A stretch of 64,000 bases of DNA, taken from Niabella sp. (GTDB lineage Bacteria > Bacteroidota > Bacteroidia > Chitinophagales > Chitinophagaceae). Every line of letters starts with the position of its first letter. Position 1 is the first letter of the stretch. The notes beneath the pieces were generated by a model. It made no database searches. It had not been told where the DNA came from and saw only the letters and a program-made list of their open reading frames with translations. Positions 5,798 to 46,433 of the stretch are shown one piece after another. The DNA lies in the NCBI GenBank assembly GCA_027493055.1, contig JAPUDO010000020.1:49345-113344 (forward strand), given 5' to 3'. Position numbers and translations under genes: made by a program.

Positions 5798-5870
5798 ATT
5801 TTTTTTTAGAAAGTAATGGCGTATTGACAGAACGGAATAACAGACTGATTCACAAATATGCATACTCATG

Positions 5871-5902: not shown

Positions 5903-5924
5903 CCTGTCTCATGTAAAACTATGA

Positions 5925-20134: not shown

Positions 20135-20183
20135 AAATGTTAATATCGTTTATAGAGCGCAAAATAAGTGTATCAATTTGTCT

Positions 20184-21947: not shown

Positions 21948-21951
21948 ACAA

Positions 21952-24116: not shown

Positions 24117-24143
24117 ATCGATATTTTAAAAATCTATGTGGTA

Positions 24144-25697: not shown

Positions 25698-25763
25698 TCT
25701 TGTATTTTTAATTTTTATCAAATGGAACTCACGTATATGGAATATTTTCCCGGACGTTTTATC

Positions 25764-26453: not shown

Positions 26454-26492
26454 ACTCTGATTGGCTAATACTACTTATGCTAATATTATTTG

Positions 26493-27761: not shown

Positions 27762-27813
27762 TTACATTTTTAGTTTTCCTAATAAAATTATAAGTGCCAT
27801 ATCCCCATATATT

Positions 27814-29906: not shown

Positions 29907-31106
29907 CTAACGAACATCCCAAAACCCAACCAGGTTAAAGTTGAACTGCCATACCAAACCACCATTATCTACTGCCAGAAGCGCAGACTCTTTAGAAAGT
30001 ATATTTCTGTATTTATTCCATCCACTGCCTACATGCTGCGGCGTTCCTAAAGTAAGTCCCGTTGCATTAACAGCATAATAAAACATTTCGCCCTGCGAAT
30101 CGACTGCTAAAAAACCATCCTGATAGGCTTCAATTTTTGTAAACCCGCTGAAGCTATCTCCAAGCAGTGTTGTCTGATCCCAAAGAATGTCACTCTTTTT
30201 AACCAGATAAAGCTCTCCACCTGGTTTTCTGCATATAAGAGCGTTATGTGCCTTTGAATAACTGACAATATCATAAGCATTGAAGTTGTTTCCTCTTACA
30301 ACTCCTTCAAAAGATATTGCCCTGCTTTTCACATCAAAAGGGTATTCCCATAATATGCCGGTGCCCGCCCATCGGGTTATAAGCCTGTTATCTGCTCCAA
30401 TTACCTTGTCAAAAATATTCCAGCCACCATTTGGAACTATATTATTAGTACCATAAGCCTGGTTTTCATTGCTCCATTCATAGGTTGAAAAAAGCCCGTT
30501 TGTTTCTACCAAAATAAGCGCGTTCTGATAAGCAACAAGTGAGATCAAACTTCTTCCAAGCAAGTCAAAAACCTTAGCAGGCGGCTCTTTACCAGGAGGA
30601 TAGCTTCCGGTAATCAGCAAATAAACTGTTTTTAGCTTTTGATTGATTTCAAAACCAGAACTTGCAGACGATATACCAACCGGCAATAAATAGGACACAC
30701 CCGGCTCTATAAAACCCTCCGTTTTAATTTCGATATCTATAGGTGATGAAAAATAATCGTTTCCTTTAATAGTAGCACTTTTGTTTATTAAAACATAGCT
30801 GCCTTCAGGAACTATCTGATAGTTTGTATAATTCTTTGCATTGTACGCCTGAACCGAATCGGAATAAACCTCAAACGACAGGTTGATATCTGATGGAGCC
30901 GGCGAGGTACCTCCCAGGCCAGCGTTTATCTGGATCTTCTGAACAGAATCGGTTATAGCTAATACCCTGGCAAACACTCCTGTGCCGCTTGCCTGGGTTA
31001 TATAAATTTTTTTAAACCGGCTCAGGTCTTCCACTTCAATTGCCTTTTTATTGCATGAGAATGAAAGCATAAAGCACAATAGCAGGTATATAAATTTAAG
31101 CTTCAT
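29907..31106 (-). CDS. DUF1735 surface lipoprotein with tachylectin-like beta-propeller
   Basis: I take ATG 31106, which gives a lipoprotein signal (MKLKFIYLLLCFMLSFSC, Cys18) and a 41-bp gap to susD; a longer frame from 31154 would hide it. Residues about 30-170 match the DUF1735/BT_3987-like N-terminal domain (FEVYSDSVQAYNAKN, YVLINKSATIKGNDYFSSPI, GVSYLLPVGISS). The rest shows repeated blades (NGGWNIFDKVIGADNRLI, DGFLAVDSQGEMFYY, ESALLAVDNGGLVW) of the tachylectin-2 type. It is probably a surface glycan-binding protein working with SusD. Confidence 0.82.
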   Translation of the reverse strand: MKLKFIYLLLCFMLSFSCNKKAIEVEDLSRFKKIYITQASGTGVFARVLAITDSVQKIQINAGLGGTSPAPSDINLSFEVYSDSVQAYNAKNYTNYQIVPEGSYVLINKSATIKGNDYFSSPIDIEIKTEGFIEPGVSYLLPVGISSASSGFEINQKLKTVYLLITGSYPPGKEPPAKVFDLLGRSLISLVAYQNALILVETNGLFSTYEWSNENQAYGTNNIVPNGGWNIFDKVIGADNRLITRWAGTGILWEYPFDVKSRAISFEGVVRGNNFNAYDIVSYSKAHNALICRKPGGELYLVKKSDILWDQTTLLGDSFSGFTKIEAYQDGFLAVDSQGEMFYYAVNATGLTLGTPQHVGSGWNKYRNILSKESALLAVDNGGLVWQFNFNLVGFWDVR

Positions 31107-31147
31107 ATTATTTCTCTTTAATGTTACTAACTTACGTTTCAATCTTA

Positions 31148-32869
31148 TTACCATCCGGGATTTTGGTTCCTGCCAAAATCAGGGATTATAGAAGCGTCCT
31201 TGGTTGGGATCGGGAATAACAGATACTTATTTTCAGCAACGTTTGTTCTTCGTACAACAAACCTTTCGTAAGAAAATGAGCCATTGCTGTTTTTTACAGG
31301 CTCCATTCCTGTTACCAGCTTATCCGTTTTTTCAAGTATCTTCCATCTTCTTACATCCCAAAAACGGAGCTCTTCAAAAGCAAATTCTACTCTTCTCTCC
31401 TTACGAATACGCTCCCGCAATTGTGCCTGGTTTAATGTTGCTGGAAGTGATGGCATATTGGAACGGTTCCGCACTGTATTCACAGCAGTAAAAACTTCGG
31501 TACCTGGTCCCCGTGCTTCGTTCTCTGCTTCTGCATAATTTAAATACAGTTCTGCCAGTCTTATTTTTTTCCAATTGCATGAATTTTGTGTACTCTGGTC
31601 GGGAATTTTTGGATCAATAAACTTTCTTAAATAATACCCGGTATGTGTGTTTCTTCTGTTAGGCGGTGATTTTAATAACTGGTCAGCACCCCCGGCAAAC
31701 ATTTCCATAGTATGTAAAACACCGCTTCCCATGTCATAAACTGCATTATTATACCATACAGTTGCATAAAAGCGCGGATCTCTGTTCTCGTATGGTTTGG
31801 AAGGATCATACCCAGATCCGGAATTGATGACAGGCTGCAGATGATCATCATCCAGGTAACCCAGGATAGGCGGCTCGCCTGTTGTTTTCATATCATAACT
31901 ATCCACTAGTTCCTGTGACGGACAGGAGCCTGCTTTCATCATTCCAGGCTTACTGGGAATACTATTTATGAGTGCCGAATTACACCCCAAAGGACGTTCA
32001 AAAATGGTTTCCCTATCCCTCGGTGACTCCGCTACATCCGCGTTATTTAAAAAATACTCGCTGTAATTATCAAAAAGAGCGAAATTGCCATTTGCTGTAA
32101 GAGCGGTCAGCGCTTCTTTTGAGGCTACAGCCGCTGCATTCCATTTAGCCAGGTCATTTGCCGGATTCCACAACGGACTGGCATTTTGCAGTAAAACCTG
32201 GGACTTAAGCGCATAGGCTATAGCCCGCGTCATTCTTCCCCGCTCGTTGGCAGATGTAATTCTCATTGGAAGTGCCGTATTGCTGATCACTTCATCACAA
32301 TCCTTAACAATCATATTTGTCACCTCCTGAAATGTAGGTCTTGATAATTGGGAGTAATCGAACTTACTATCAAACGGTTTATCTACATAGGGTAATGGCC
32401 CGTATTTTTTTATTAATTCAGAATAGTAGAATGCGCGCAACAATTGTGCTTCGGCTTTAAATCGCATTTTCAAATTTCCCGTTGTTACATTGGCATTGTC
32501 TATATTTTCCAAAAACACATTAGCATCGTATATCCCTCCCCAAAGTGCAGTGTAAGTATCGCCTGTAGGGTCGAAAGCCGGTGTAAGCGCACCACTTAGC
32601 CATTGATTAGCCATGCCAGAATTTTCGTTGCCTACATCACTATCGTGCGCTTCATCGGTAATACCCGCTAAAAATGCATAAAAATGATAAAACCAGTAAT
32701 AGCTTGGTATATGACCATACACCCTGTTTAAATACGCCCCTGTCCGGTTTTCGTCACTGAATATTTCATCTAAAGACATGCGCCCATCCGGGGTGATATC
32801 TAAAAATTTCTTTTTACATCCGCAAAAACAGATGGCAATAAAGATGAAGTAAAATGCTACTTTTCTCAT
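31148..32869 (-). CDS. susD: SusD/RagB-family outer-membrane lipoprotein
   Basis: This 573-residue lipoprotein (lipobox ICFCGC, Cys18) continues KKFLDITPDGRMSLDEIF, the usual SusD opening. It has TPR-like helices (KMRFKAEAQLLRAFYYSELIK) and ends with CNWKKIRLAELYLNYAEAEN, RRVEFAFEELRFWDVRRWK and a final FGRNQNPGW. SusD proteins cap the SusC transporter at the cell surface and bind oligosaccharides. susC ends 18 bp upstream, so the two are one translation unit. The symbol is used for the family; starch is not implied. Confidence 0.96.
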   Translation of the reverse strand: MRKVAFYFIFIAICFCGCKKKFLDITPDGRMSLDEIFSDENRTGAYLNRVYGHIPSYYWFYHFYAFLAGITDEAHDSDVGNENSGMANQWLSGALTPAFDPTGDTYTALWGGIYDANVFLENIDNANVTTGNLKMRFKAEAQLLRAFYYSELIKKYGPLPYVDKPFDSKFDYSQLSRPTFQEVTNMIVKDCDEVISNTALPMRITSANERGRMTRAIAYALKSQVLLQNASPLWNPANDLAKWNAAAVASKEALTALTANGNFALFDNYSEYFLNNADVAESPRDRETIFERPLGCNSALINSIPSKPGMMKAGSCPSQELVDSYDMKTTGEPPILGYLDDDHLQPVINSGSGYDPSKPYENRDPRFYATVWYNNAVYDMGSGVLHTMEMFAGGADQLLKSPPNRRNTHTGYYLRKFIDPKIPDQSTQNSCNWKKIRLAELYLNYAEAENEARGPGTEVFTAVNTVRNRSNMPSLPATLNQAQLRERIRKERRVEFAFEELRFWDVRRWKILEKTDKLVTGMEPVKNSNGSFSYERFVVRRTNVAENKYLLFPIPTKDASIIPDFGRNQNPGW

Positions 32870-32887: not shown

Positions 32888-35800
32888 TTAAAAATTAATA
32901 TTAAGGCCAAGATTATATATCCTCACTAAGGGATAGGATAAATCTCCCGTAAGCTCCGGATCGAAGTTTTTAGTGGGTAGCCGGTCAAAGGTGATTAAGT
33001 TAAGACCATTTATATACACCCTGGCTCCTTTTATACGTAACCTTTCAAATAGTGCCGGGGAAAAATTATACCCGATCTCAACATTTTTCAACCTTATATA
33101 ACTTGCATCATTTATAAAAAAACTATTTTCAATCTCATTGGGATTTGCCTGTGTTGTTAATCTCGGGTATTCGATTGGCAGCCCATTAGCCACTCTTTCT
33201 TCTGTCCAGCTTCCTAAATGTCTTGCAACATAATTGCTCACAGAATTGGTTCCCCTGTACATGTAATAGTTTGAAACATTTGTTACTCCCTGAACCAGTA
33301 AACTAAAATCTATTCTCTTAAAAGTAGTTTGTATAGCTGCTCCAAATGTATATTCAGGTACTGATGAAAATAATATGGGCGCCCTGTCTCTGAAATCAAT
33401 CAGCCCGTCTCCGTTTATGTCACGATATTTAAAATCACCTGCGCGGGAAGCATGTCCACCAACATTTTGTACCGGGGAGAGCCTGATTTCCTCTGAGCTT
33501 TCAAAATATTTATCAACAATATAACCAAACTGCTGGCCTATCCTGTATCCGGTTTCCCTGTATCGATAGGCATAATCTTCGGGAAGTAACGGTTCATCGG
33601 CATTTAACTGTTTATTTCTTGCATAGCTCATATTCAGCTTGGCAATCAAAGAGAAATCAGGCTTTATTCTTTTGTTGTATCCCAGCTCAACTTCGTATCC
33701 CCTATTTTGAACAATCCCTATATTTACAGGCGCCAATACACTAATAGGAAGCCCGTTCAAAGCAGGTACGGTACCCCTGTACCTGAGAATATTATCTCTT
33801 TTTTCAGTGAAAATATCTGCAATTAATGTTAGTGAATTAAGCAATCCCAATTCAATTCCTATATTCGTTTTTCTTGAAACTTCCCACTGCAGGCCTTCAT
33901 TTTTTAAAAGGTTAATGGCAACAGTTTGTCCCAGGCCGAGGCTGGAGCTATACCCGCCACCGGTTACCTGAACATTATCTAAATACAGAAAACGCTGCCC
34001 TCCAATCCTGTCATTTCCTACCAAACCATAAGAAGCCCTCAGTTTTAGCAAATTAACCGTTTCGGAGTTTTCCAAAAACTTTTCCCTGGATACCACCCAG
34101 GCGCCCGAAACCGCGGGGAAAAAACCATAGCGTCTCTTCTTAGCAAATTGCTCTGACCCGTTATACCCTGCATTGAGTTCAAAAAAGTACTTTCCATCAT
34201 AACCATAAGACCATCTTGTAGCAAGACCTCTGAGGTTATACGGTAATTCGGCATTAACAATCAGGCTCTGTTGCTGAAACAGGAGCAAAGACGTTAACGA
34301 ATGTTTTTTAAACGAGCGGGCATAATTTAAAGAAGCCTGAAGATTGGACATAGAGGTAAAGCTCCTGGAGCCGGAAATACTGAGCGGTGTATTAACCCCG
34401 GCATTGGAAGGCACATAATACACACTGTCCATTCCATCAGCACCTTTCAGGTTGGGGTCCACTACCTGCATCCAGCTTTCATAGCCTCTTGAGGCGCTTA
34501 GGGTATTAACCGGGGTTAAATCAAAAGAGACCATCGCTTTAGCAGAAAGACCCTTAGTAATAAAATCAAGCTTTTGATTCATTCCGTAGGATGCAGTGAT
34601 CCTTCCGCTGGTAGTTTTTATATAGCCGGAGCGATTGATTAATGCATACTGCGACCATTGCCCGGCGCTGCCTACCAATATCTCACCATCTTTAGTTAAA
34701 GGACCCGCAACGTTTGCCGGCATGTCGTTTCCAAATGCAATAATATATAAAGAAGGATCGCTTCCTGTAGCGCCCCATGGTGAATTAATATTTTCCACAT
34801 AACCTGCAACATTAAGAAATGCATCCAGGCCTTTATTTAAGCGGAAGTCAATATTTGATCTGAAAGTATAACGGTCTAAGCGGAAGCTCGGATCATAGCC
34901 CATTGGCTGATCCGGTTCAGTTTTAAATTGCCCCCCCTGCCTTAAATAACCTGCATTCACAAAATAATTTGCAATTTTTCCTGCACCGGAAATATTCAGA
35001 TTATGACGCTGCATTAACGCGTATTTTTTTAAATTGATTTTATTCCAGTCATTGTCAGGATACCTCGTTGGGTCGTCCTGTAACCTGTACCGTTCCAGCG
35101 CATACTCCGAATAGGGCTCATTCAATCCATCGTTTCTAAAAGCCTGGTTTCTTAATGTAGCATATTCGTAAGCGTTAACAGGTTTGATCAGCCGCGGAAA
35201 ATCCTGCGTCCCGGTTTCAAATGAATAGTTCACTTCCGGTATCTCAGACTTTCCTCTCCTGGTTGTAACTAAAATAACACCGTTGGCGCCCCGCACGCCA
35301 AATACAGCCGTTGAGGAGGCATCTTTTAATATTGTAATGGATTCAACTTCATTCGGGTCAACAGCAGTAAGACTTCGTTCAATACCGTCAACCAAAACAA
35401 TCGGGCTTTGTGTATTAATGGTTCCCTGCCCTCTTATAAACAATTGTGTTACATCACGCCCCGGCTCTCCACTTTTCTGAATTACAGTTAATCCCGGTAA
35501 TCTTCCTGCAAGTGAAACAGCCAGGTTAGCTGCCGGACTTTGTTTAAGCTCCTTTGTTTGTATGGAAGCTACAGCCCCTGTGACACTTAGCTTCTTTTGC
35601 TGGCCATATCCAACTACTACCACTTCATCCATATCATTTGGTAAAGGCGTCAGAACGATATTTGAATAATCATTATTTTTTACAGAAATTTCTGCCTTAA
35701 TATACCCTACACTGGATATAACAAGAACTGCATTTTCATCTGTTACATTTATAGAAAACTCACCATCGGCAGTTGTTGTAGTGCCATTATCAGTACCTTT

Positions 35801-36106
35801 TTCAACTATAGTCACCCCAGCCAAAGGCTCTCCTTTTTCGTTGGTAACCTTTCCCTGTACAGGTAATATAAGAACAGTTCCTCTGCTGACCTTCTGATAC
35901 CTCCCGTACACATCAATAATACCGGCTATTGTATAACCGGTCAAAGTATTCCCGTCATCCGGTCTTTTTACCGGCAACCCTGTAAAGGCTACAGCACGAA
36001 AAGAAGTTGTTAATAAAACGGTTAGAACAAAGTATATCAGCCATACCCTCTTTACCGGGCGGTACGGTAAAAATGGACTAACGGAATAAGCACTTTTTCT
36101 CATCAT
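32888..36106 (-). CDS. susC: SusC/RagA-family TonB-linked outer-membrane transporter
   Basis: This 1072-residue protein has a signal peptide (about 1-40). An unusual stretch of about 45 residues precedes the CarboxypepD_reg-like domain (VQGKVTNEKGEPLAGVTIVE). The plug follows (VVVVGYGQQKKLSVTGAVAS, LFIRGQGTINTQSPIVLVDG, DASSTAVFGVRGANGVILVT), then a beta-barrel ending in LGLNINF. No STN signalling domain is seen, so control by a sigma/anti-sigma pair is unlikely; the AraC gene is the better candidate regulator. It imports glycan fragments together with SusD. Confidence 0.96.
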   Translation of the reverse strand: MMRKSAYSVSPFLPYRPVKRVWLIYFVLTVLLTTSFRAVAFTGLPVKRPDDGNTLTGYTIAGIIDVYGRYQKVSRGTVLILPVQGKVTNEKGEPLAGVTIVEKGTDNGTTTTADGEFSINVTDENAVLVISSVGYIKAEISVKNNDYSNIVLTPLPNDMDEVVVVGYGQQKKLSVTGAVASIQTKELKQSPAANLAVSLAGRLPGLTVIQKSGEPGRDVTQLFIRGQGTINTQSPIVLVDGIERSLTAVDPNEVESITILKDASSTAVFGVRGANGVILVTTRRGKSEIPEVNYSFETGTQDFPRLIKPVNAYEYATLRNQAFRNDGLNEPYSEYALERYRLQDDPTRYPDNDWNKINLKKYALMQRHNLNISGAGKIANYFVNAGYLRQGGQFKTEPDQPMGYDPSFRLDRYTFRSNIDFRLNKGLDAFLNVAGYVENINSPWGATGSDPSLYIIAFGNDMPANVAGPLTKDGEILVGSAGQWSQYALINRSGYIKTTSGRITASYGMNQKLDFITKGLSAKAMVSFDLTPVNTLSASRGYESWMQVVDPNLKGADGMDSVYYVPSNAGVNTPLSISGSRSFTSMSNLQASLNYARSFKKHSLTSLLLFQQQSLIVNAELPYNLRGLATRWSYGYDGKYFFELNAGYNGSEQFAKKRRYGFFPAVSGAWVVSREKFLENSETVNLLKLRASYGLVGNDRIGGQRFLYLDNVQVTGGGYSSSLGLGQTVAINLLKNEGLQWEVSRKTNIGIELGLLNSLTLIADIFTEKRDNILRYRGTVPALNGLPISVLAPVNIGIVQNRGYEVELGYNKRIKPDFSLIAKLNMSYARNKQLNADEPLLPEDYAYRYRETGYRIGQQFGYIVDKYFESSEEIRLSPVQNVGGHASRAGDFKYRDINGDGLIDFRDRAPILFSSVPEYTFGAAIQTTFKRIDFSLLVQGVTNVSNYYMYRGTNSVSNYVARHLGSWTEERVANGLPIEYPRLTTQANPNEIENSFFINDASYIRLKNVEIGYNFSPALFERLRIKGARVYINGLNLITFDRLPTKNFDPELTGDLSYPLVRIYNLGLNINF

Positions 36107-36213: not shown

Positions 36214-36603
36214 TTAAGATGGCATTTTTACAATACAATCAATTTCAACCTTAATACCTTTTCCTAATACAGATTGAACTGTTGTCCTTGCCGGCTTTAC
36301 TCCCGGGAAGTATTGTTCATATACTTTATTATACCTGTCAAAATCATCCCAGTTGCTTAAATGCGCTGTGCACTTTACTACATGATCCATAGTGGCACCG
36401 GCAGCTTCTACAATGGCCTTTATATTTTCCAACGTTCGATGTGTTTCTTCTTCTATTGTTCCCAGCACAAACTGAGAGGTTTTAAAGTCAACCGAGGCCT
36501 GTCCGCTAACAAATAAAAAACCGCCTGCCAAAACACCATCAGAAAAAATACCTGTTACAAAACCTGGGTCCCGGTTTGGATTATCGATTCTTGTTTTACT
36601 CAT
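36214..36603 (-). CDS. RidA-family protein (copy 2)
   Basis: This 129-residue cytosolic Rid-fold protein is nearly the twin of copy 1 (23727-24116). The block GFLFVSGQASVDF continuing through LGTIEEET, and the ending ARTTVQSVLGKGIKVEIDCI with its pocket Arg, are shared. Codons differ at many silent positions, so the duplication is not recent or the copies came separately. It lies between the ceramidase-like gene and susC. It may detoxify or process an imine/enamine made during catabolism of the PUL substrate. Confidence 0.9.
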   Translation of the reverse strand: MSKTRIDNPNRDPGFVTGIFSDGVLAGGFLFVSGQASVDFKTSQFVLGTIEEETHRTLENIKAIVEAAGATMDHVVKCTAHLSNWDDFDRYNKVYEQYFPGVKPARTTVQSVLGKGIKVEIDCIVKMPS

Positions 36604-36734: not shown

Positions 36735-38096
36735 CTAACTACGCCTTTCTTTATTAACCGAAAGGGGTATCATTTCATTTACCGCATGTACAACAAGGTC
36801 TTCTGCTTCTTCTGATAATGGAGACGGCTTGTTATACCAGTACATACTGGCATCTGCTTCGTATCCGCCTTCTTTTATTACCCGGCAAGAAGCGATATAG
36901 CAGGATACATCATTTGCATACGAATTGATCCAAAGGCGTGAGGCGTCCCATTCGTTTTTAAGCCGTACGGCATAGTCCACTACAACTTCACCACCTAAAT
37001 TGATCATTATCATTTTATCTCCGAAGCTCCAGGTTTGAATAGGGTATTTGAGATCTTCGGGAAGATTCTCCCCTCTTTGAATACGATCCAATGCCAACCG
37101 CGCATAATATCCTTTTATAGTAGTATCTTCTTTTGCTAATTCAATCAATTCAGGCACAGAGGGCACACTGGAAAAAGGTAACCTGATCCATTTCATATTA
37201 CATGCCGGCGGCTCAGTTAAGGGTTGAAGATGGGCTGATTTTAGCAGATGATCCACATTATCAGCAATCTCTCTACCATAAGCCTGCATGTGTTCCATTT
37301 TATCTCTTAGTCTGGGATGCAGATCTCCCGCACAGCCGATAGCAATCAGCGCCATAGCCCCGTGATACCTGGCTTCAATTATTTTTTGCGCTTCACCCAT
37401 CCAGTCACTATGTATTTCATTTACATCCGGCCCAAGGCTGATCCCATGGCAAGCATAATTTACCAAAACAGCTCTAATTGCGCCTTCCGGACTTGTAATA
37501 CGTAAAACAGGTAACGCATGATCAACCGGACCTCCTTCAGCTCTACGGTTTTCAGAAAATGAAGCTTCTCCCTGCCCCCAGTCTACGAATGCAGGCCTTC
37601 TATCCCGCAATGCCGCCAATGCTACCTCTTCAAGCTTTTCACTCAACATTTCGTTGAACGCTGCAATATGTATCAGTTGGTCAAGCTCTAAAAGAGAATC
37701 ACTGAAACTATATTTTAAAGGATACTCACCCCTGCATTGCAGGTGGTTTATAAGACAGCCGATCTCAGGCCCACCATGTGTATGAGTGGCACAAATAGCA
37801 ACTTGCGCCTGGCTCATTCCCATCCTTTTTGAAAGCTGCTCTATTAACCGGCTTGTTACACGCCATTGGATCCCCAACAGCTCAACAGTAATAAAAATAG
37901 AAGGCCGTTGCGCATCACTTCCAAAAGCTATAGCCTTAGCATATAATTTTTGTAATACCTTGTCTGACTCTGTTTTACTGCGGGCACCAAACCCCGAAAG
38001 TCGTATAGGAGTGCGTGGCGTAATATCTGCTTCTGCAAGGCCAACTTCTATACTTCCGTTCAGATCTTTATGTATCGGTTGTGAATATGAACTCAT
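36735..38096 (-). CDS. Neutral ceramidase N-terminal-domain-like protein with altered nucleophile motif
   Basis: I start this 453-residue protein at ATG 38096 (MSSYSQPIHKDLNGSIEVGL), 134 bp below the shared regulatory element; an earlier start adds 30 untypical residues and lies nearer the promoter. The family is seen in VGLAEADITPRTPIRLSGFG, ICATHTHGGPEIG (Zn-binding His) and YACHGISLG. True ceramidases have GDVSPN with the nucleophilic Ser; here it reads GDLHPR. It also has no signal peptide. So it is probably not a ceramidase but a cytosolic hydrolase of another kind. It is the first gene of the PUL unit. Confidence 0.8.
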   Translation of the reverse strand: MSSYSQPIHKDLNGSIEVGLAEADITPRTPIRLSGFGARSKTESDKVLQKLYAKAIAFGSDAQRPSIFITVELLGIQWRVTSRLIEQLSKRMGMSQAQVAICATHTHGGPEIGCLINHLQCRGEYPLKYSFSDSLLELDQLIHIAAFNEMLSEKLEEVALAALRDRRPAFVDWGQGEASFSENRRAEGGPVDHALPVLRITSPEGAIRAVLVNYACHGISLGPDVNEIHSDWMGEAQKIIEARYHGAMALIAIGCAGDLHPRLRDKMEHMQAYGREIADNVDHLLKSAHLQPLTEPPACNMKWIRLPFSSVPSVPELIELAKEDTTIKGYYARLALDRIQRGENLPEDLKYPIQTWSFGDKMIMINLGGEVVVDYAVRLKNEWDASRLWINSYANDVSCYIASCRVIKEGGYEADASMYWYNKPSPLSEEAEDLVVHAVNEMIPLSVNKERRS

Positions 38097-38203: not shown

Positions 38204-38271
38204 CAAATTTATTAAGCAATATTTTAGACTTTTTACCCTATATAGATAAATATCTATCTTATTTTGTCTTT
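38204..38271 (-). promoter_or_regulatory. Regulatory element A plus -7 box of the PUL operon
   Basis: The 42-bp core at 38230-38271 matches a core at 46392-46433 in 35 of 42 positions (plus-strand blocks TTTTTACCCTAT, ATAAATA and TATTTTGTCTTT in equal spacing). Both lie upstream of minus-strand operons. On the minus strand an exact -7 box, TAAATTTG (38211-38204), follows 18 nt below the core, so the core would lie at and just upstream of the -33 position, as expected for an activator site. No TTTG -33 box is present. A 7+2+7 palindrome (38242-38257) exists only in this copy. AraC control is inferred. Confidence 0.65.
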
Positions 38272-38451
38272 CTTTTCTATGTGCTCAACTAAGCAGAAAA
38301 ACTATTACAAAAACAATATAGCCAGGAGACTAAAAGAGGAGAAGCCCCAACACTATCAATACAAGGGATGGTATATACGAATAAAAACAGGTCTTGGCTG
38401 GCAGACGCTATAAATCTGCATTACAAATTTTAAAAACAGGAAAGCTCTATT
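38272..38451. other. Spacer between araC-type gene and PUL promoter, with a possible 44-codon ORF
   Basis: A plus-strand frame from ATG 38279 to TAA 38411-38413 encodes 44 residues (starts MCSTKQKNYYKNNIARRLKE, ends KTGLGWQTL). It begins 8 bp after the regulatory core. I know no homologue and see no clear ribosome site. I do not call it a gene, but record it because nothing else lies between the AraC gene and the promoter. No terminator for the AraC gene is obvious. Confidence 0.25.
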
Positions 38452-39330
38452 TCAAGCGAGCTCCTGTGAAAATGCTTTGAAATAATTTAACCGATATTGT
38501 CTCGGCTGGCAATTTTTGAATTTTTTAAATTGCCTGTAGAAGAAAGGAATACTTTCAAAACCAGAATCGTAGCAAATTTCGCTTATAGGCTTATCCGTTT
38601 CTATAAGCAGTTTACATGATTTGCTGATTTTATATTCATTCAAAAACTCGAAAAAAGTCTTCTTCATTGTCTTGCTGAAAAATCTTGAAAAATATTCAGG
38701 GCTCATGTATAGCTGTTCTGCAACATCTGCAAGAGATATCTTCTCCTGATAATGATCATCAATATATTTATACACTATATTGATACGATCGCTGTTACAG
38801 CGGTCAAGATCGCAGGAAAACTTTTGCTCGCATAGTAAACGAAACCTGGAAGTTTCGCTCAATTCCTGTAATATCTGCATTAATAAGATGAACTTTTGTA
38901 AGGGAGGAAGCATCGGCAATTCAAGGCATCTCTCTTTTAATCGTGATGCTACTACCTGATCAAACTTAACCCCTTTCTCTGATAGTTCAAGAAGGTTTCT
39001 TATAGCTTTAAACTCGCAGCTCCGAAGCCATGTTTTGTTGAAGAACTCTTCTTTCAAATATATCACTATTGCATTGGGAGATTGTTTATGATAACCCGAT
39101 TCATTGATCCAGCAATGTGGCAAATTTGAACCTAACAGTACAAGATCATCATTAAAGAAATTTTCAACACTATTTCCTACGTATCTAAGCCCCTGGCCTT
39201 TGGGGATATAAGTTAATTCATATTCATAGTGATAATGCCAGGGGTAATCAAATTCTTTTTTACCTTTTTGCAAAACCACATTGAATAAATCAGATTCATC
39301 AGGCGGGATCGGCTTATAATTCGGTTTCAT
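38452..39330 (-). CDS. AraC-family transcriptional regulator
   Basis: This 292-residue protein has an N-terminal cupin-like sugar-sensing domain (DYPWHYHYEYELTYIPKGQG, FFNDDLVLLGSNLPHCW). A C-terminal pair of helix-turn-helix motifs follows (ISLADVAEQLYMSPEYFSRF and ISEICYDSGFESIPFFYRQF, ending CQPRQYR). It is the last gene of the catabolic operon, 43 bp below the SSS symporter gene. Its position between the two units that share a 42-bp upstream element makes it the likely activator of both; its own expression would then be self-amplifying. Confidence 0.92.
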   Translation of the reverse strand: MKPNYKPIPPDESDLFNVVLQKGKKEFDYPWHYHYEYELTYIPKGQGLRYVGNSVENFFNDDLVLLGSNLPHCWINESGYHKQSPNAIVIYLKEEFFNKTWLRSCEFKAIRNLLELSEKGVKFDQVVASRLKERCLELPMLPPLQKFILLMQILQELSETSRFRLLCEQKFSCDLDRCNSDRINIVYKYIDDHYQEKISLADVAEQLYMSPEYFSRFFSKTMKKTFFEFLNEYKISKSCKLLIETDKPISEICYDSGFESIPFFYRQFKKFKNCQPRQYRLNYFKAFSQELA

Positions 39331-39373
39331 AAACTAAAAATACATTTTTTCTGTTTTTTTGTTCTAAAGTCAC

Positions 39374-40975
39374 CTACCAGTAACGCCAGTAAATATAACA
39401 CCAGGCCACGGCATATAACACCGCCCAGAACTTAACCTGTTTCCACCACGGTCGTTTTACGCCATCATCAAGCATAACAAGCCATGAAGGTTTCCAGATA
39501 AACGATTTTACCTGATCAGTAGTAGGCGGAGTAGAATATAAAGAAACAACCATAACGAGCAACATCGTCAATACCTGTGAAATACCGCCGGCATACAACC
39601 AGTGAAGCCTGATCTCCAACAGGTTTAAAACCCAGGCAAGCACTAACTGAATGACAACACCGCCCAAAAGCCCTGCCACAGCGCCTGCATAACTCGTTCT
39701 TTTCCAAATAACACCCAGTATTATCACCGAAATAAAAGGAGTTGCTATATACGTAACGCCCATCTGGAAATACTTGAAAAGCCCCACCGTTCCTACCAAT
39801 GGCGCCACCCAGGAGGCAATTAACAGCGCTGCTGCTCCTGAGATCTGTCCCGAAATGATCATTTCCTTATCACCGGCATTTTTCCGTAGGAAACTGCGGT
39901 AAATATCCAGTGAAAAAATGGTGGATATGGAATTGGAAAGCGCGCTTACAGAAGACATAATCGCCGCAAAAAAGCCAGCCAGTACAATACCCTTGACCCC
40001 GGAAGGCGCAAATGTTTGCAATGCAAGCGGAAAAGCTTTATCGTAATTGTCAGGTAATAAGCTGGCCCCCTGGTGCATCACATCCAACCAATGATACATT
40101 ACCAACCCCATCAAACAGGTAACAATCGGCAGTATGATACCAATAAAACCAGCAAAAATGATTCCCATCATGCCGTGCCATGTATTTTTGGCAGACAGAA
40201 TACGCTGTATCATTACCTGGTTAGATGATTGGTAAAATAAGAACACACCAAAAGAGGCTACAATAAGCCCTAAAAAAGGAGCTTCAGGATCGGAAGGCGG
40301 GTGATATAAGTGGAAGCGATCAGGAGCTGCTTCTACCATGGCATTCCAACCACCGGGAATATGATCCAGAGCCAGCCAGAAAAAGAGAACTCCCCCGATC
40401 ATAAAGAGTACACATTGTATGGCATCTGTCCACATCACTGAATTCAACCCGCCAAGCAAGGTATAACTTCCCGTAGCCACCACAATACCGGCCATTACAT
40501 AATACTGGTTCCATCCGGTTAGTTCACTCACAGTAATACTGCCCCCGTAAAGAACGGGAGGAAGAAAGACAAATACATAACCGATGATCATGACCACGCT
40601 ATATATACTGGCACAGGCAGGTCCGAAACGGCGCTTCAAAAATTCGGGTACCGTCATGATCTTATTGCGTAAATACATCGGGATGAAAAAGATCATTGTC
40701 AGCAAATACGTAGGCAAGGCCCACCAGGTCCAGTTGGCAATACCCATCCCATCTTTATAAGTTGCGCCCATTGTTCCCACTATTTGCTCGCTTGAAACTG
40801 TGGTGGCAACAAAAGCAGCCCCAACCAGGTACCAGGGCATCTTGCCCGAGGCCAAAAAGTACCCCTTTACAGTCCGGTCAGTCCGCCTGGCCGCTATGAG
40901 CCCGATCACAACGACAACCAGGGTAATCCCTCCAATGATAATAAGATCAAGCACGGAAAGGCTAAAACTATTCAT
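39374..40975 (-). CDS. SSS-family sodium:solute symporter
   Basis: This 533-residue inner-membrane protein has about 14 hydrophobic segments and the SSS pattern. This includes VKGYFLASGKMPWYLVGAAF, VATTVSSEQIVGTMGATYKD, GGLNSVMWTDAIQCVLFMIG and AAIMSSVSALSNSISTIFSLD. It resembles the sugar-transporting SglT branch in layout. Placed between a deacetylase and the AraC gene in a sugar-acid catabolic operon, it probably imports the released monosaccharide or sugar acid with Na+. Confidence 0.93.
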   Translation of the reverse strand: MNSFSLSVLDLIIIGGITLVVVVIGLIAARRTDRTVKGYFLASGKMPWYLVGAAFVATTVSSEQIVGTMGATYKDGMGIANWTWWALPTYLLTMIFFIPMYLRNKIMTVPEFLKRRFGPACASIYSVVMIIGYVFVFLPPVLYGGSITVSELTGWNQYYVMAGIVVATGSYTLLGGLNSVMWTDAIQCVLFMIGGVLFFWLALDHIPGGWNAMVEAAPDRFHLYHPPSDPEAPFLGLIVASFGVFLFYQSSNQVMIQRILSAKNTWHGMMGIIFAGFIGIILPIVTCLMGLVMYHWLDVMHQGASLLPDNYDKAFPLALQTFAPSGVKGIVLAGFFAAIMSSVSALSNSISTIFSLDIYRSFLRKNAGDKEMIISGQISGAAALLIASWVAPLVGTVGLFKYFQMGVTYIATPFISVIILGVIWKRTSYAGAVAGLLGGVVIQLVLAWVLNLLEIRLHWLYAGGISQVLTMLLVMVVSLYSTPPTTDQVKSFIWKPSWLVMLDDGVKRPWWKQVKFWAVLYAVAWCYIYWRYW

Positions 40976-40997
40976 TAAATTAAATTATAAGTTGCTA

Positions 40998-41705
40998 TTA
41001 AGGTAATACCCGACGTGTGAGCCCGCGCTGGGAAGCATCCAGTCTTGTGAAAGCCTCAGCATACCGACAACCCGCTGCAAGGCCCCTGAATCCGGCCTGC
41101 ATCTGAATCATCCAATTCATATCAATACTTGCCAGATCTTCCATAGCAACAAACTGACTTTCATGACATGCCAGCATGGCTTTTTTAGTGTCAAAGACAT
41201 TTGTTATATCTACATATTCGGTAGGTTGAAAACCAATCCCTCCGATGTTGTCCATGTAATACAGCTGTGCACCTGCAAACCGACAAGCAGGCAAAGACTG
41301 ACCTGGCATGTGCGGCAACCCTTTTTGGAAATAGGAATCAAACACGAGCTGACTTACATAACGATGATCGGGGTGATAATCATTTGGTGAATGCGTAAAA
41401 ATAACATCCGGATCTGCTTTTCTCAGCACATCGATCATAAGGTGTCGTTGCGCCCTGTCCGGAAATACCAGTTCGTCCGTAACACCCACCCAGATCAGAT
41501 CCGCCCCAATAATATTTGCCGCCGCCTGCGCTTCCTTTTCCCGGGTAGCGCTCAGTATATCAGGTTTTACCACGGCATCACCGATACTGCCATCCGTAAA
41601 AATAGCAATGCTTACCCTATGTCCTTCCTGCGCATAACGGGTAAGCGTTCCGGCACAAAGCAATTCGGTATCATCAGGATGCGCAGCAACACAAAGAATA
41701 TTCAT
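40998..41705 (-). CDS. PIG-L family deacetylase
   Basis: This 235-residue LmbE/PIG-L protein has AAHPDDTEL near the N-terminus (the AHPDD zinc and catalytic motif) and the third zinc ligand in SPNDYHPDHRYV. Family members remove N-acetyl groups from GlcNAc-like sugars or conjugates in the cytosol. There is no signal peptide. In this operon it may deacylate an amino- or acyl-sugar before oxidation. The gene is tightly packed (26 bp after the RraA gene, 22 bp before the symporter gene). Confidence 0.92.
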   Translation of the reverse strand: MNILCVAAHPDDTELLCAGTLTRYAQEGHRVSIAIFTDGSIGDAVVKPDILSATREKEAQAAANIIGADLIWVGVTDELVFPDRAQRHLMIDVLRKADPDVIFTHSPNDYHPDHRYVSQLVFDSYFQKGLPHMPGQSLPACRFAGAQLYYMDNIGGIGFQPTEYVDITNVFDTKKAMLACHESQFVAMEDLASIDMNWMIQMQAGFRGLAAGCRYAEAFTRLDASQRGLTRRVLP

Positions 41706-41731
41706 AATTTTTTTATTTTTAATAATATCTT

Positions 41732-42415
41732 TTATAGTACCCCGTACCGGTTGTAAACAGTTCTTAAAGAATCCCCGTTCAGCAGGTCGGTTCGTGATTG
41801 GTTTTCCTTACATACTTTTTCATAAGCCAGTTCCAGCACCTGGTCTTCAACAGAACGGGGTACTATTACCACCCCATCAAAATCGGCAAAAACAAGCTCT
41901 CCCGGATGCACCAGCACCTCCCCGCATTTCACCGGCACATCATAAGCCATCACCCGGCCTCTTCCCAGGCTGTCAACCGGGCGAATCCCTTTATAAAATA
42001 ACGGATAGCCCAGTTCGATGATCTTTGTACAATCTCTTATCATGCTATCGCAAATCGTACCAACCGAACCATTCCTTTGGGCAATGGTACTCATCAGCTC
42101 ACCCCAAGGTGCGTTCGTACAGGCATGATCCGTAGAATGGATCACCACATCATTGGGTTTCAAAGAGTCTACGGCCTCTATTTCCAGGTCATACGCATCA
42201 TCTTCAACATAGTCGGTTTCCATCCAGCGAAATGTTCGGGCTCTGCCGACAATTACACAGTTATTGGGATCAAGGGGCCTTAAACGCTGATGCATAGCGC
42301 AGTTCCTGTGCCCTAATGTGTCCAGCACATCGCAGACGATAGGAACATATAGTTTTTCCCGGATCCATCTGAATTTTTCAGTGTCGTTAATAAAAAGAAT
42401 CGTTTTAGAGTTCAT
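41732..42415 (-). CDS. RraA-family protein (HMG/CHA-type aldolase-like)
   Basis: This 227-residue RraA-fold protein keeps the aldolase signature WGELMSTIAQRNGSVGTICD followed by SMIRD, whose Arg-Asp pair binds substrate and divalent metal in 4-hydroxy-4-methyl-2-oxoglutarate aldolases. True RNase E regulators lack such a context. It follows the lactone/acid/dehydratase genes. I infer that it splits a 2-keto-3-deoxy sugar acid into pyruvate and an aldehyde, which is unusual for this family in sugar pathways. Confidence 0.88.
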   Translation of the reverse strand: MNSKTILFINDTEKFRWIREKLYVPIVCDVLDTLGHRNCAMHQRLRPLDPNNCVIVGRARTFRWMETDYVEDDAYDLEIEAVDSLKPNDVVIHSTDHACTNAPWGELMSTIAQRNGSVGTICDSMIRDCTKIIELGYPLFYKGIRPVDSLGRGRVMAYDVPVKCGEVLVHPGELVFADFDGVVIVPRSVEDQVLELAYEKVCKENQSRTDLLNGDSLRTVYNRYGVL

Positions 42416-42464
42416 GGTTGTATATTTAAGAACTGTTACTTAAGGTTATAATCACGTTTTTGAA

Positions 42465-43229
42465 TCAGCATTCCTTCCAGGCAAAAGGTTGCATCCGGCG
42501 AGGCAGTATACATCGGTCAGCTATCCCGTATTGCGAGCAAAACCATTTAAAAGTTTCGGGATTTTCCGCATTTAGCTCCATCAAATCATAATGGTTGGGC
42601 AGTACATACCGGGGCTGTAATACCTGTGCAAACAGCGCGGCCTGCTCCGGCCCAGGGTTGCCCCATTTTCCGTTAATGGGAACCAGCATCACTTCCGGAT
42701 TTGCAGGCGCCGCCTTCAGGACGAGCGGATGAAATTCGGTATCGCTGGTGTGATAGACGCTTCTTCCGTTGGCAAATTGTATAAAATACCCCGTTGTATC
42801 CAGCACATCAGCGCCTGTTGGCAAGGCAAAGGCACCGGTAATCTCCACAAAACCAAACTGTCTGCTTTCCCCCGCATGCAGGATAACAACCCGCTCCTCC
42901 GGGATGCCCAGGGCGACCAGCTTTTTGGCAGCCTGCCGCGGCGCCACAAACCAGGTTTTTTCCTTATCCTTGTAAAGCGAAATGGTAGCAGGATCAAGAT
43001 GGTCTAAATGATCGTGCGTAACAACAAAGATATCCGCGCTGAGTACTGCAGGATCAACAGGCACTGGATAGCGACGCGAAAGCTCGGGCGCATCTTTAGC
43101 AGCAGCATCGGAAAGATAAGGATCAATTACTATGGTAATATCTGCCGCCCGCACTATATAGCCTGCCTGACCCAGCCACCATAAGGCAGCTTCTGACGCT
43201 TCCAATTTATAGTCAAGAACCTGTTTCAT
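42465..43229 (-). CDS. UlaG-like MBL-fold metallo-hydrolase
   Basis: This 254-residue protein has WWLGQAGYIVRAADITIVID and the metal motif VVTHDHLDHLDP (HxHxDH). Further metal and active-site residues are in YHTSDTEFHP and LPNHYDLMELNAENPETF. This matches the UlaG branch, known for L-ascorbate-6-phosphate lactonase, so a sugar-lactone or phosphoester hydrolase is plausible. It lies 10 bp after the dehydratase gene. With the amidohydrolase in the same operon there are two possible lactonases. Confidence 0.88.
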   Translation of the reverse strand: MKQVLDYKLEASEAALWWLGQAGYIVRAADITIVIDPYLSDAAAKDAPELSRRYPVPVDPAVLSADIFVVTHDHLDHLDPATISLYKDKEKTWFVAPRQAAKKLVALGIPEERVVILHAGESRQFGFVEITGAFALPTGADVLDTTGYFIQFANGRSVYHTSDTEFHPLVLKAAPANPEVMLVPINGKWGNPGPEQAALFAQVLQPRYVLPNHYDLMELNAENPETFKWFCSQYGIADRCILPRRMQPFAWKEC

Positions 43230-43239
43230 TTTAAAATAA

Positions 43240-44391
43240 TTAAAGATTCACACAGAACTTTTTCACGGCTTTCTCATTGATCTCAATACCCAACCCCGGT
43301 CCCTGGGGCACCGGGATATAACCATCGGCATCCATCTGAACCGGATTCCTTATAACCTCTCTCAGCATTGGGCTATCACAAACATTGTATTCAAGAAAAA
43401 GCGACCTGGGCAACACAGCATTTACATGAAGGCTGGCAGCCGTATTGAGATCCGTTAGCCAGGCATGCGGACATACATCCACACCTGCATATTCGGCCTC
43501 CCACATAATTTTGCGCGCCTCGGTAAAACCACCGCAACGGGTAAGATCCGGCTGGGCTACATCAATACCGCCGCTCTGGATCAGTTGCCGGAAACCCCAA
43601 CCGGTTGCTTCCTGCTCGCCTGCGGCCAGTCTTGTTTTTACGCCTGCCGCTTTAACCCGGGCATACCCCTCATAGTTCTCGGGGGGCATAAAATCCTCCA
43701 GCCAGTAAATATTATAGGGTTCCAGCGCCCTGCATAATTCAATCATATCATAAGGGCTGCGCGGTGCCATCCAGCCGGGGTCCACCATTAATTCCTTATC
43801 AGGTCCCAATGCCTCACGGGCGGCTGCCACTAATTCAATATCGCGTTTAAAATCCTGTCCGAATACGCCCCAGCCAAATTTCACCGCAGTGAATCCACGC
43901 TCCAGGTAAAAAGCGCAGGCGTCCTTTATAGCTTCCGGTGTAGACCGGAAAAGTGTGGAAGCATACGCGCGAATCCGCTCCCGCCTTCCGCCGCCAAGAA
44001 TTTTGTGAACCGGACGGCCAATTGCTTTACCCATAATATCATGACAGGCAATATCAAAACCCGACAACATCTGCATGGCTACTCCCCTTCTTCCGTAATA
44101 AATAGAGCCCCGGTACACTTTATCCCATAGCCGTTCCACATCGAAAGGATCTTCCCCGATAACCAGTGTCCGCAATCCTTCAAAGACCCCCGAACCGCTA
44201 TCAGGTGCATTAACAGCAGCTACAGCAACATGAGAAGAAGTTTCTATATCCGACCATCCTGTAATGCCTTCATCGGTGCTAACCTTTAATAAAAGACAAT
44301 GCTTCACCCCTCTTGCCTCCTCACTGCCTTCCGGGGCTGTATTTTCATAGGGTGATTCGAGAATAAAAGCCTCAACATCTGTAATCTTCAT
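43240..44391 (-). CDS. Mandelate racemase-subgroup enolase-superfamily dehydratase
   Basis: This 383-residue protein has metal ligands in LMVDPGW (Asp204), YWLEDF (Glu232) and LAAGEQ (Glu259). The Asp282-His309 dyad (QPDLTRCGG, VCPHAWL) is typical of the mandelate racemase subgroup. The usual KxK is KFG here (Lys171 only), as in several acid-sugar dehydratases. It should dehydrate an aldonate to a 2-keto-3-deoxy acid. It is not a glycolytic enolase. Neighbours are a Zn dehydrogenase (19 bp upstream) and an MBL hydrolase (10 bp downstream). The exact sugar is not deducible. Confidence 0.88.
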   Translation of the reverse strand: MKITDVEAFILESPYENTAPEGSEEARGVKHCLLLKVSTDEGITGWSDIETSSHVAVAAVNAPDSGSGVFEGLRTLVIGEDPFDVERLWDKVYRGSIYYGRRGVAMQMLSGFDIACHDIMGKAIGRPVHKILGGGRRERIRAYASTLFRSTPEAIKDACAFYLERGFTAVKFGWGVFGQDFKRDIELVAAAREALGPDKELMVDPGWMAPRSPYDMIELCRALEPYNIYWLEDFMPPENYEGYARVKAAGVKTRLAAGEQEATGWGFRQLIQSGGIDVAQPDLTRCGGFTEARKIMWEAEYAGVDVCPHAWLTDLNTAASLHVNAVLPRSLFLEYNVCDSPMLREVIRNPVQMDADGYIPVPQGPGLGIEINEKAVKKFCVNL

Positions 44392-44410
44392 ACGAAATAT
44401 TCATTTAGGT

Positions 44411-45406
44411 TTAATGTGAATCAAATACCAGCGCCACTTTCAGCGCTTTGTCATGCCGGTCGCGCGCCAGGTAAAATCCTTCCTCCCAATTATCGAACGG
44501 AACCTCATGCGTTACCAGTTCTGACAGGTTTAAAGAAGGATCCTGCAAACATTGCAGCGCCATATCCATCCTGTCCTCATCATTACAGCAGCCTACTATT
44601 TCCTGTTCCGAAATATGCAGGTTGAACAGATCAACAGGCACCGGATCTTTTAACAAGCTAAAAACCACCATCCGGCCCCGCTTACGGAGCGATCGCATGC
44701 AGGTGGTTACCGCGTCTGCGGAGCTTACGGCCAATATGGCTACATCTACAGATTGCACCGGTAATGTACCGGCAATTTCCACTCCCGGTATCATCCCAAG
44801 CCGGAACGGTTCCCTGCCGGCAACCAAAACCTTTGCTCCTTCCCTTACTGCCAGCCGGGCGATTATATTCCCGAAAGGGCCGTCTCCTACTACTAATACT
44901 ACCCGGTTGTTTATATCTCCTGCACGCGCTATGGCCTGCAGGCAATTGGCCACCGGCTCCAGCAAAGCGCCCAATGAAAAGGACATCTCATCCGGTATCC
45001 GGCGCACCCTGTCCGCCCTATGCGTAAAGTATTCCGAAAAAGTGCCGTTCCTGTCTATTCCCAGGTGTCCCATATTCAGGCAAAGATGACCAAAGCCGCG
45101 CTCACATTCCACGCAGGTGCCACAGGAAACTACCGGATGCACTGCCACCCGCATACCAGGCAAAATATCTTTTACTGCCGATCCGCACTGCACCACAATC
45201 CCGGCGCCTTCATGACCCGGTACTTTCGGCAGTTCAATACCAAAAGGGTTCATTTTAATATCGTGCAGATCTGATGTACAAATAGTAGCTGCCCGGGTCT
45301 GAATCAGCACTTCATCCGGTTTGGGGAAAGGAACGGGAAGTTCGGTAAGCACCAGTTGATCCGGCCCCTGTAATTGTAATGCTTTCATTATTGCTGGCTG
45401 ACTCAT
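44411..45406 (-). CDS. Zinc-dependent MDR alcohol/sugar dehydrogenase
   Basis: This 331-residue medium-chain dehydrogenase has catalytic-zinc residues Cys43 (ICTSDLHD) and His65-Glu66 (GHEGAG). The structural zinc cysteines are in CGTCVECERGFGHLC (Cys95, 98, 101, 109). The NAD(P) loop is VVGDGPFG. It probably oxidises a sugar hydroxyl, giving an aldono-lactone or keto-sugar. The ATG overlaps the amidohydrolase stop by 4 nt (ATGA), so the two proteins are made together, consistent with consecutive oxidation and lactone opening. Confidence 0.9.
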   Translation of the reverse strand: MSQPAIMKALQLQGPDQLVLTELPVPFPKPDEVLIQTRAATICTSDLHDIKMNPFGIELPKVPGHEGAGIVVQCGSAVKDILPGMRVAVHPVVSCGTCVECERGFGHLCLNMGHLGIDRNGTFSEYFTHRADRVRRIPDEMSFSLGALLEPVANCLQAIARAGDINNRVVLVVGDGPFGNIIARLAVREGAKVLVAGREPFRLGMIPGVEIAGTLPVQSVDVAILAVSSADAVTTCMRSLRKRGRMVVFSLLKDPVPVDLFNLHISEQEIVGCCNDEDRMDMALQCLQDPSLNLSELVTHEVPFDNWEEGFYLARDRHDKALKVALVFDSH

Positions 45407-46272
45407 TGCTTTATTGATAATACGGGGTTGGGCAAGCCCAACAGTTCTAATGAATTCCGGTGAATAATACTTTCAATAACCTCTCCGGGTACGGCAGGCA
45501 GGCCGCTTTTACCAAGTATCTCATTGATCCCACGTACTCCTTTCAGGGAATCCTGCGTGGTGGTAAACGGGAAGTCAGACCCGAAAAGCACTTTTTCTGT
45601 TGCCCGGTATTCTACCAGCAAACGCATGGAATTATAGAATTGCCAGGGACGATAATATAATGCAGAGATATCTGCATAAACATTCGCGTGGCGCCGGATA
45701 ACAGCAATGGTTTCCCCTTCCCACGGGTGGCCCAAATGGGCCAGTACCATGCGCAAATCCGGAAAATCAACCGCGATTGCATCAAAATGAACGGGACGCG
45801 AATAATCTAACAGCGTACCGCCAACAAAGGAAGTACCTGCATGGAAAAGTACGGGCAGGCCATGTTTGGTGCAGTACCTGTAAATCTCGTAATATCGTGG
45901 ATCCGCAGGATGTATATTTTGATAAAGCGGGGCCAGTTTTACACCAACAGCGCCTAACTGCTGATGGCATTTTTCCAGCTCTTCCATAAAATCCGGCTTT
46001 AAAGGATCTATGGAAGCGAAAAATAGTAAACGGTTTGCCGCACAGGATACATGCGCTGCCACAGCCTCATTAGGAATGTTCCAGCCGGTGGCGGATGCCT
46101 GTAACCCAAATACCACTGCTACATCAGCATCCTTCGTAGCATCCAAATGTCGGGCATTTACATCTCCCCAAACAGAAGGGTCAATACCACAACGTTGCAT
46201 ATCTGCCCGGAGCTGTGGCCCAAAATCAGATACCGGATTAAAAACATGGGTGTGAATATCTACAATCATCAT
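45403..46272 (-). CDS. Amidohydrolase-family TIM-barrel protein, possible lactonase
   Basis: This 289-residue amidohydrolase-2-like protein has the metal motif VDIHTHVF (HxH). It also has GVKLAPLYQ, LPVLFHAGTS, VLAHLGHPW and the catalytic Asp of LFGSDFPF. The same fold serves decarboxylases and sugar lactonases. Next to a dehydrogenase and an acid-sugar dehydratase, opening of the lactone is the simplest role. It is the first gene of the catabolic operon, with the shared 42-bp element 120 bp upstream. MIV at the second Met is an equally good start. Confidence 0.85.
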   Translation of the reverse strand: MMIVDIHTHVFNPVSDFGPQLRADMQRCGIDPSVWGDVNARHLDATKDADVAVVFGLQASATGWNIPNEAVAAHVSCAANRLLFFASIDPLKPDFMEELEKCHQQLGAVGVKLAPLYQNIHPADPRYYEIYRYCTKHGLPVLFHAGTSFVGGTLLDYSRPVHFDAIAVDFPDLRMVLAHLGHPWEGETIAVIRRHANVYADISALYYRPWQFYNSMRLLVEYRATEKVLFGSDFPFTTTQDSLKGVRGINEILGKSGLPAVPGEVIESIIHRNSLELLGLPNPVLSIKQ

Positions 46273-46364
46273 GTAAGTTTAAAACAATAAGCCCAAGTTT
46301 CAGCTTAATCAACATGCCTTACCTCTTTTACTGCTGACATTCTAAAACATAAAGAATGACATTG

Positions 46365-46433
46365 TAAATGTACAGTACAAAGTTTCTGTTTTTTTACCCT
46401 ATGCGGATAAATACATACCCTATTTTGTCTTTT
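46365..46433 (-). promoter_or_regulatory. Regulatory element B plus -7-like box of the catabolic operon
   Basis: The core at 46392-46433 is the second copy of the 42-bp element (35 of 42 identical to 38230-38271, no gaps). On the minus strand TACATTTA (46372-46365, one mismatch to TAnnTTTG) lies 19 nt below the core, against 18 nt in the other copy. The core ends 119 bp from the first start codon, against 133 bp in the other. The conserved layout in two places argues for a real activator-dependent promoter. Confidence 0.62.

Follow-up and report, generated by a model that had tools for sequence, protein, structure and literature searches.

The window analysed here, i.e. 64,000 nucleotides of Niabella sp. 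(Chitinophagaceae; assembly GCA_027493055.1, contig JAPUDO010000020.1, positions 49,345 to 113,344 of the forward strand), harbours two neighbouring gene groups on the minus strand, a polysaccharide utilization locus (PUL) and a sugar-acid catabolic operon, here termed operon B. Operon B (46272 to 38452; gene gaps of -4 to 49 bp) codes, in this order, for an Amidohydro_2 hydrolase, an alcohol dehydrogenase, an enolase-superfamily dehydratase, a metallo-beta-lactamase fold hydrolase, an RraA-like aldolase, a PIG-L deacetylase, a sodium symporter and an AraC-family regulator. The PUL starts 355 bp past the araC gene with a ceramidase-like gene, followed by genes for RidA, SusC and SusD and then by further same-strand genes. 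Upstream of each unit resides one copy of a 42-bp element (copy A, PUL; copy B, operon B; Table 1), and a single AraC regulator very probably switches the PUL and the neighbouring sugar-breakdown operon on together.

Two copies of a 42-bp element

Copies A (38230-38271) and B (46391-46432), both on the minus strand, share 35 of their 42 positions in an ungapped alignment. This identity had been reported by a first-pass annotation, which, however, placed B one base too high (46392-46433), a register yielding 16/42. No ungapped alignment of 42 bases between the two upstream regions (264 and 753 bp) exceeds these 35 identities, the maximum in 200 first-order Markov randomisations being 28. The distances of 119-133 bp to the first start codons, likewise given there, hold: 134 from the edge of A (38230) to the ATG at 38096, which is preferred over a TTG at 38186 as PUL start, and 119 from the edge of B (46391) to the ATG at 46272.

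Occurrence elsewhere in the genome, named beforehand as a possible objection to a regulon, was searched for in the whole assembly (5,747,285 bases, 5.75 Mb; 131 contigs). An 87-bp query around A retrieved solely A and B at E <= 0.001, the latter with E = 1e-5 and an alignment confined to 42 bases; the flanks of the two copies are unlike each other. With up to 3 mismatches allowed, a pattern comprising 24 fixed letters detected nothing beyond A and B in the genome, and a shorter half-site pattern detected these two plus one other place at 3 mismatches (reversed control, none). The next place after B and A in this genome (scores in Table 1) reached 14.9 bits with a sequence-only model of the element (R1), for which both copies belong to the 15 training sites and which includes the -7 box described below. 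By pattern searches and R1, no third comparable site was found in this genome, and the element is restricted to these two promoters. A third place in the window (20159-20194, plus strand; 14.9 bits) was dropped, as its score equals the genome background level. In viral contigs, the exact pattern was unmatched.

Half-sites and predicted -7 box

An alignment of 15 sites proceeded gapless across 70 columns and revealed that the core consists of two directly repeated 12-bp half-sites, CAAAATAGGGTA and CnATATAGGGTA, with 21-bp periodicity. Self-comparison of the column profile at offsets 6 to 27 yielded 0.29 per column at offset 21 (next, 0.03), and the half-sites agree on average at 8.4 of 12 letters at 21 bp versus 3.0-3.9 at 19, 20, 22 and 23 bp. 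A direct or asymmetric site had indeed been proposed at the outset, together with the observation that the palindrome of copy A is not kept in B. This inverted repeat is also absent from the copies of the nearest orthologous locus (L033, see below), and the best inverted symmetry amounts to 0.17 versus 0.29 for the direct one; the palindrome reading was, therefore, rejected.

Both copies are followed by a TAnnTTTG-like box, as the first-pass annotation had stated, the spacing of which is to be given as one value instead of 18-19 nt: with the coordinates of B corrected, both boxes are located 22 nt past half-site 2 (107 nt before the ATG at 38096 and 92 nt before that at 46272). The consensus for the primary sigma factor of Bacteroidetes comprises TTTG at -33 and TAnnTTTG at -7 (PMC7366714). 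By inspection, both promoters are devoid of the -33 TTTG: its expected position is occupied by the last letters of half-site 2 and an A-run, as would be expected for an activator-dependent promoter.

The spacing was also determined in a table of 22 sites picked by likeness to the 42-mers alone, i.e. ignoring the box. An exact TAnnTTTG was present at spacer 22 in 14 of these sites and at least 5 of its 6 letters in 19, and all other spacers from 0 to 89 combined yielded a single exact box. Rows of L044, L045, L047 and L056-L058, which repeat places under named loci, were counted once. Two L051 rows outside this table (15618, box 5/6 at spacer 22; 13857, none) change the counts to 14 exact boxes and 20 with at least 5/6 among 24 sites. 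Tandem double elements, 52-60 bp apart, were observed beside araC in L099 (2405 and 2465) and L053 (19261 and 19209), the outer copy lacking a -7 box at spacer 22.

The AraC protein and the element in other genomes

The 292-amino-acid AraC protein matches the Pfam families HTH_18 (71.9 bits) and HTH_AraC (54.9 bits) above their cut-offs and Cupin_2 below it (20.8 versus 27.2). Its AlphaFold model (mean predicted local distance difference test score, 78.8) displays a strand-rich N-terminal domain with seven strands in residues 16-92, then helices, and a C-terminal domain of seven helices in residues 177-291. Fold matches in the PDB comprise the sensor domains of AraC and RhaR (TMt 0.58-0.67) and the DNA-binding domain of AraC; full-length matches have low TM-scores (0.35-0.45). 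The protein displays hallmarks of the AraC/XylS family: a C-terminal domain of about 100 amino acids with two helix-turn-helix (HTH) motifs, an N-terminal sensor and dimerisation domain of cupin/jelly-roll type as in the sugar-sensing subgroup and, presumably as its own operator, two direct half-sites about 21 bp apart by the promoter. Features of a hybrid two-component system (HTCS) are not apparent, as Pfam yields the AraC HTH and the weak cupin match only.

AraC orthologues (>50 % identity) and R1 matches were sought in a family sample of 294 genomes. Eleven genomes contain an orthologue (next best identity, 43 %) and 11 an R1 match at E of 0.001 or better, and the two coincide: R1 matches 10 of the 11 genomes with AraC (G000, G007, G055, G064, G081, G107, G211, G230, G239 and G256) and 1 of the 283 without. 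The latter (G263) shows a marginal partial match (E 9e-4, box 2/6). Five AraC genomes had provided no training site, four of which (G007, G107, G230 and G239) were found by the model; in the fifth, G229, a site with TACTTTTG at spacer 22 is visible by eye. The same TACTTTTG and spacer were identified in the element of G561, which was found via AraC alone (one of 4 matches in an order sample of 396 genomes). Nineteen loci with more distantly related AraC homologues (L015-L032, 3-4 kb each, and L041) yielded a single model match (E 0.031). For the operon-B dehydratase, a match at E <= 1e-160 was obtained in 4 of the 294 genomes, all of them with AraC; the element, therefore, follows AraC and not this enzyme.

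In a tree of 33 AraC rows, from which L042 is absent (partial gene at a contig end, missed by the open reading frame filter), a single clade (100/98) comprises 13 of the 14 proteins with the label site-bearing. The remaining one (G030, 43 %) groups with the protein from a congener devoid of the site. The region of the second recognition helix (FFYRQFKKFKNCQP) is nearly invariant among the 13 and differs in most other rows.

The presence of the element upstream of orthologous operons, a check proposed with the first-pass annotation, was established for Sphingobacteriales bacterium 50-39 (L033), the nearest orthologue (AraC, 80 %), in which both operons share the gene order and are preceded by the element; a third, weaker copy precedes the metallo-beta-lactamase gene. 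Operon B of L033 contains an extra gene (4707-6089), HisD-like by eye, followed by this third copy. Orthologues with 51-65 % identity in other Chitinophagaceae have the element near araC, often before susC. In the relatives, it precedes catabolic genes as well as susC, and its distance to the -7 box is mostly unchanged; in several genomes, the site is located just upstream of araC and directed into the divergent neighbour. The AraC clade was observed in Chitinophagaceae and one Larkinella; Ilyomonas limi and Larkinella arboricola, for example, possess orthologues. Among five sampled congeners (G022, G119, G189, G237 and G277), neither an orthologue of AraC or of the operon-B dehydratase nor an R1 match was detected, in contrast to genomes from other genera. 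The locus (window 38452-46432) is patchily distributed and may have moved horizontally.

Outside the contig carrying araC, model sites were also found in G211, G256 and G107, which comprise 4, 8 and 4 matches, respectively, including the araC contig. Among the first downstream genes are those for an RraA-like aldolase in both G211 and G256 (61-62 % to that of the window), two SusC-like proteins in G256, a GH30-type protein, an aldehyde dehydrogenase, a GMC oxidoreductase (box 3/6), an enolase-superfamily protein at a distance of 557 nt and a protein matching GH88 below the threshold. In G107, a site on the araC contig also precedes an MFS transporter gene. Of the downstream proteins scanned, 3 of 10 were without Pfam match. 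Fifteen extra places (G561 and G263 included) contain the exact box at spacer 22 in 11 cases, a count which is not independent, since the model that found most of them includes the box. Extra elements off the araC contig were noted in three metagenome-assembled genomes (L075, L082, L083, L085-L094). Their position before sugar-metabolism genes, among others, suggests a dispersed regulon. The chances appear evenly balanced that this AraC clade is transferred between genera together with its 42-bp operator and the sugar locus as one regulatory module, and that in some genomes the operator has spread to many promoters on other contigs, by which a single cytoplasmic sensor instead of HTCS proteins would govern glycan uptake and oxidative sugar catabolism as a dispersed regulon.

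The nearest PDB entries of the operon-B dehydratase are mandelate-racemase-type proteins as well as galactonate dehydratases, and the NCBIfam matches of dehydratase and dehydrogenase are below cut-offs; no substrate is, therefore, named. Within the PUL, a 337-bp gap (27762-28098) may hold a further promoter; R1 detected nothing in this gap. The two RidA-like genes of the PUL (36214-36603 and 23727-24116) are closely similar.

Table 1 Elements, predicted promoter boxes and genes of operon B and the PUL (positions in the window)
Feature	Position	Strand	Basis
Element copy A, putative operator of PUL promoter	38230-38271	-	35/42 to B; R1, 47.9 bits
Copy A half-site 1, CAAAATAAGATA	38255-38266	-	Site alignment, repeat analysis
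Copy A half-site 2, CTATATAGGGTA, 21 bp from half-site 1	38234-38245	-	Site alignment, repeat analysis
Predicted -7 box of PUL promoter, TAAATTTG, 6/6 to TAnnTTTG	38204-38211	-	22 nt after half-site 2
Element copy B, putative operator of operon B	46391-46432	-	35/42 to A; R1, 55.5 bits
Copy B half-site 1, CAAAATAGGGTA	46416-46427	-	Site alignment, repeat analysis
Copy B half-site 2, CCGCATAGGGTA	46395-46406	-	Site alignment, repeat analysis
Predicted -7 box of operon B promoter, TACATTTA, 5/6 to TAnnTTTG	46365-46372	-	22 nt after half-site 2
Amidohydro_2 hydrolase, first operon B gene (ATG 46272)	45403-46272	-	Family search
Zinc-type alcohol dehydrogenase, operon B	44411-45406	-	Family searches
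Mandelate racemase/enolase-superfamily protein, likely sugar-acid dehydratase, operon B	43240-44391	-	Family searches, PDB
Metallo-beta-lactamase fold hydrolase, weak match to L-ascorbate-6-P lactonase, operon B	42465-43229	-	Family searches
RraA-like aldolase, operon B	41732-42415	-	Family search
PIG-L family deacetylase, operon B	40998-41705	-	Family searches
Sodium/solute symporter (SSF), operon B	39374-40975	-	Family searches
AraC-family regulator, 292 amino acids, last operon B gene, proposed binder of both elements	38452-39330	-	Pfam, AlphaFold model, orthologue clade
Ceramidase_alk-like protein, first PUL gene	36735-38096	-	Family search
RidA family protein	36214-36603	-	Family searches
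SusC-like TonB-dependent transporter	32888-36106	-	Family search
SusD-like lipoprotein	31148-32869	-	Family search
BT_3987-like N-domain protein	29907-31154	-	Family search
GH123-type catalytic domain protein	28099-29865	-	Family search
Further same-strand PUL genes past the 337-bp gap (shared transcript possible)	17267-27761	-	
NAGPA-type protein, PUL	24144-25721	-	
Second RidA-like gene	23727-24116	-	Likeness to 36214-36603
Alpha-L-rhamnosidase-like, PUL	20184-22031 and 17267-20134	-	

A probable AraC regulon and its known counterparts

Very probably, both copies are operators of promoters controlled by the AraC protein (38452-39330), which would activate both operons including its own gene; the small regulon of PUL and sugar-acid operon suggested by the first-pass annotation gains support from the co-occurrence of R1 matches with AraC orthologues (10/11 versus 1/283), from the element preceding orthologous operons, from the lack of a further comparable site in the searches of this genome and from the direct-repeat structure. 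An AraC dimer could place its two DNA-binding domains head-to-tail on half-sites one 21-bp step, i.e. two helical turns, apart. Half-site 2 ends 22 nt before the -7 box and, therefore, sits about where a -33 element would be; from this downstream half-site, AraC would contact RNA polymerase and activate transcription like classical AraC-type activators. The cupin-like N-terminal domain may sense an intracellular sugar or sugar-acid signal, which would then induce import by the SusC/D PUL via copy A as well as breakdown via copy B (dehydrogenase, dehydratase, hydrolases, aldolase and symporter). Being encoded by the final gene of operon B, AraC would also raise its own level.

Several observations weigh against this interpretation. 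The -7 box of copy B matches at 5 of 6 letters, three of the 22 sites (L042 7731, L037 8371 and L053 19261) have at most 4 letters at spacer 22, and the spacer of the Larkinella site is 23 by manual count. Six of the ten co-occurring genomes had supplied training sites, G229 was missed by the model, and in G030 a site is seen at the locus yet scored below the pass in the 294-genome scan. Held-out sites at AraC loci score far below the training sites (14.8-28.7 bits; G561, 18.1 bits; other held-out sites, up to 36.3 bits). The more distant L016 and L041, from the wider AraC clade, have no element in their loci, and siteless L041 resembles the clade in much of the recognition helix. Finally, the preference for activation over repression is drawn from the geometry of the site.

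An operator of another regulator, e.g. an HTCS with its AraC-type output domain or an unlinked factor, would also agree with the repeat structure, as HTCS motifs of Bacteroides are direct repeats of about 20-21 bp periodicity as well (PMC3878776). This is unlikely, however, in view of the R1 matches following the AraC clade (AraC being the regulator surveyed) and of the sites positioned just upstream of araC toward the divergent neighbour. Just as unlikely appears a binding of AraC that represses both promoters until the inducer arrives: a promoter-proximal half-site could block the polymerase as well as recruit it, but the largely fixed spacing of 22 nt between half-site and -7 box corresponds to the position of an activator, and RhaR of Bacteroides, related in kind, regulates positively (PMC3870299).

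A transcribed leader, riboswitch or attenuator common to both operons would be in accordance with a location more than 100 nt upstream of the preferred start codons; the element, however, precedes the conserved -7 box and, therefore, lies outside the predicted transcript, which, judged by position, renders this explanation highly improbable. Least probable of all, and already contradicted, is the view that a stretch of promoter was duplicated recently and carries no regulatory meaning. The presence of two similar copies at a distance of 8 kb in the same genome would fit such an event, but their alignment is limited to 42 bases of the 87-bp query, the flanks differ, and the element is kept before different genes in other genera.

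Control of both operons by the AraC protein would provide a specific operator for its clade (CAAAATAGGGTAnnnATTnnnCnnnATAGGGTA, 22 nt, TAnnTTTG), usable to find further targets, and predicts that glycan import and sugar-acid breakdown are co-induced by an internal metabolite. No published description of this regulon was found in open-licence PubMed Central by title and abstract start, which is weak evidence of absence.

Among known systems, E. coli AraC shares the architecture of cupin and two HTH motifs, as judged from the structural matches, and binds at araI1-araI2 to promoter-adjacent half-sites arranged in tandem with a 21-bp step; it differs in half-site sequence, sigma factor and promoter, and also represses by looping. 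The HTCS of Bacteroides thetaiotaomicron likewise possess an AraC-type DNA-binding domain, and their direct repeats at susC/susD loci have steps (16+5, 12+9 or 14+6 bp) similar to that of the element (PMC3878776); they combine, however, sensor, histidine kinase, receiver and AraC domains, in contrast to the 292 amino acids and cupin-like N-terminal domain of the present protein. A comparative study reports 21-bp direct repeats for the rhamnose regulators of the AraC family in Bacillales, Bacteroides and Enterococcus and calls the motif of each group unique (PMC3870299). Bacteroides RhaR, which controls the L-rhamnose regulon, resembles the window's regulator as a one-component AraC-family protein of Bacteroidota involved in sugar catabolism, with a predicted 21-bp direct repeat and a positive mode of action; this comparison refers to regulator type and repeat periodicity (PMC3870299). 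Since 21-bp direct repeats have already been described for AraC-type sugar regulators (PMC3870299), the PUL and operon B of Niabella sp. represent a new regulon of a known kind, which is real and well supported, and not surprising in its principle.

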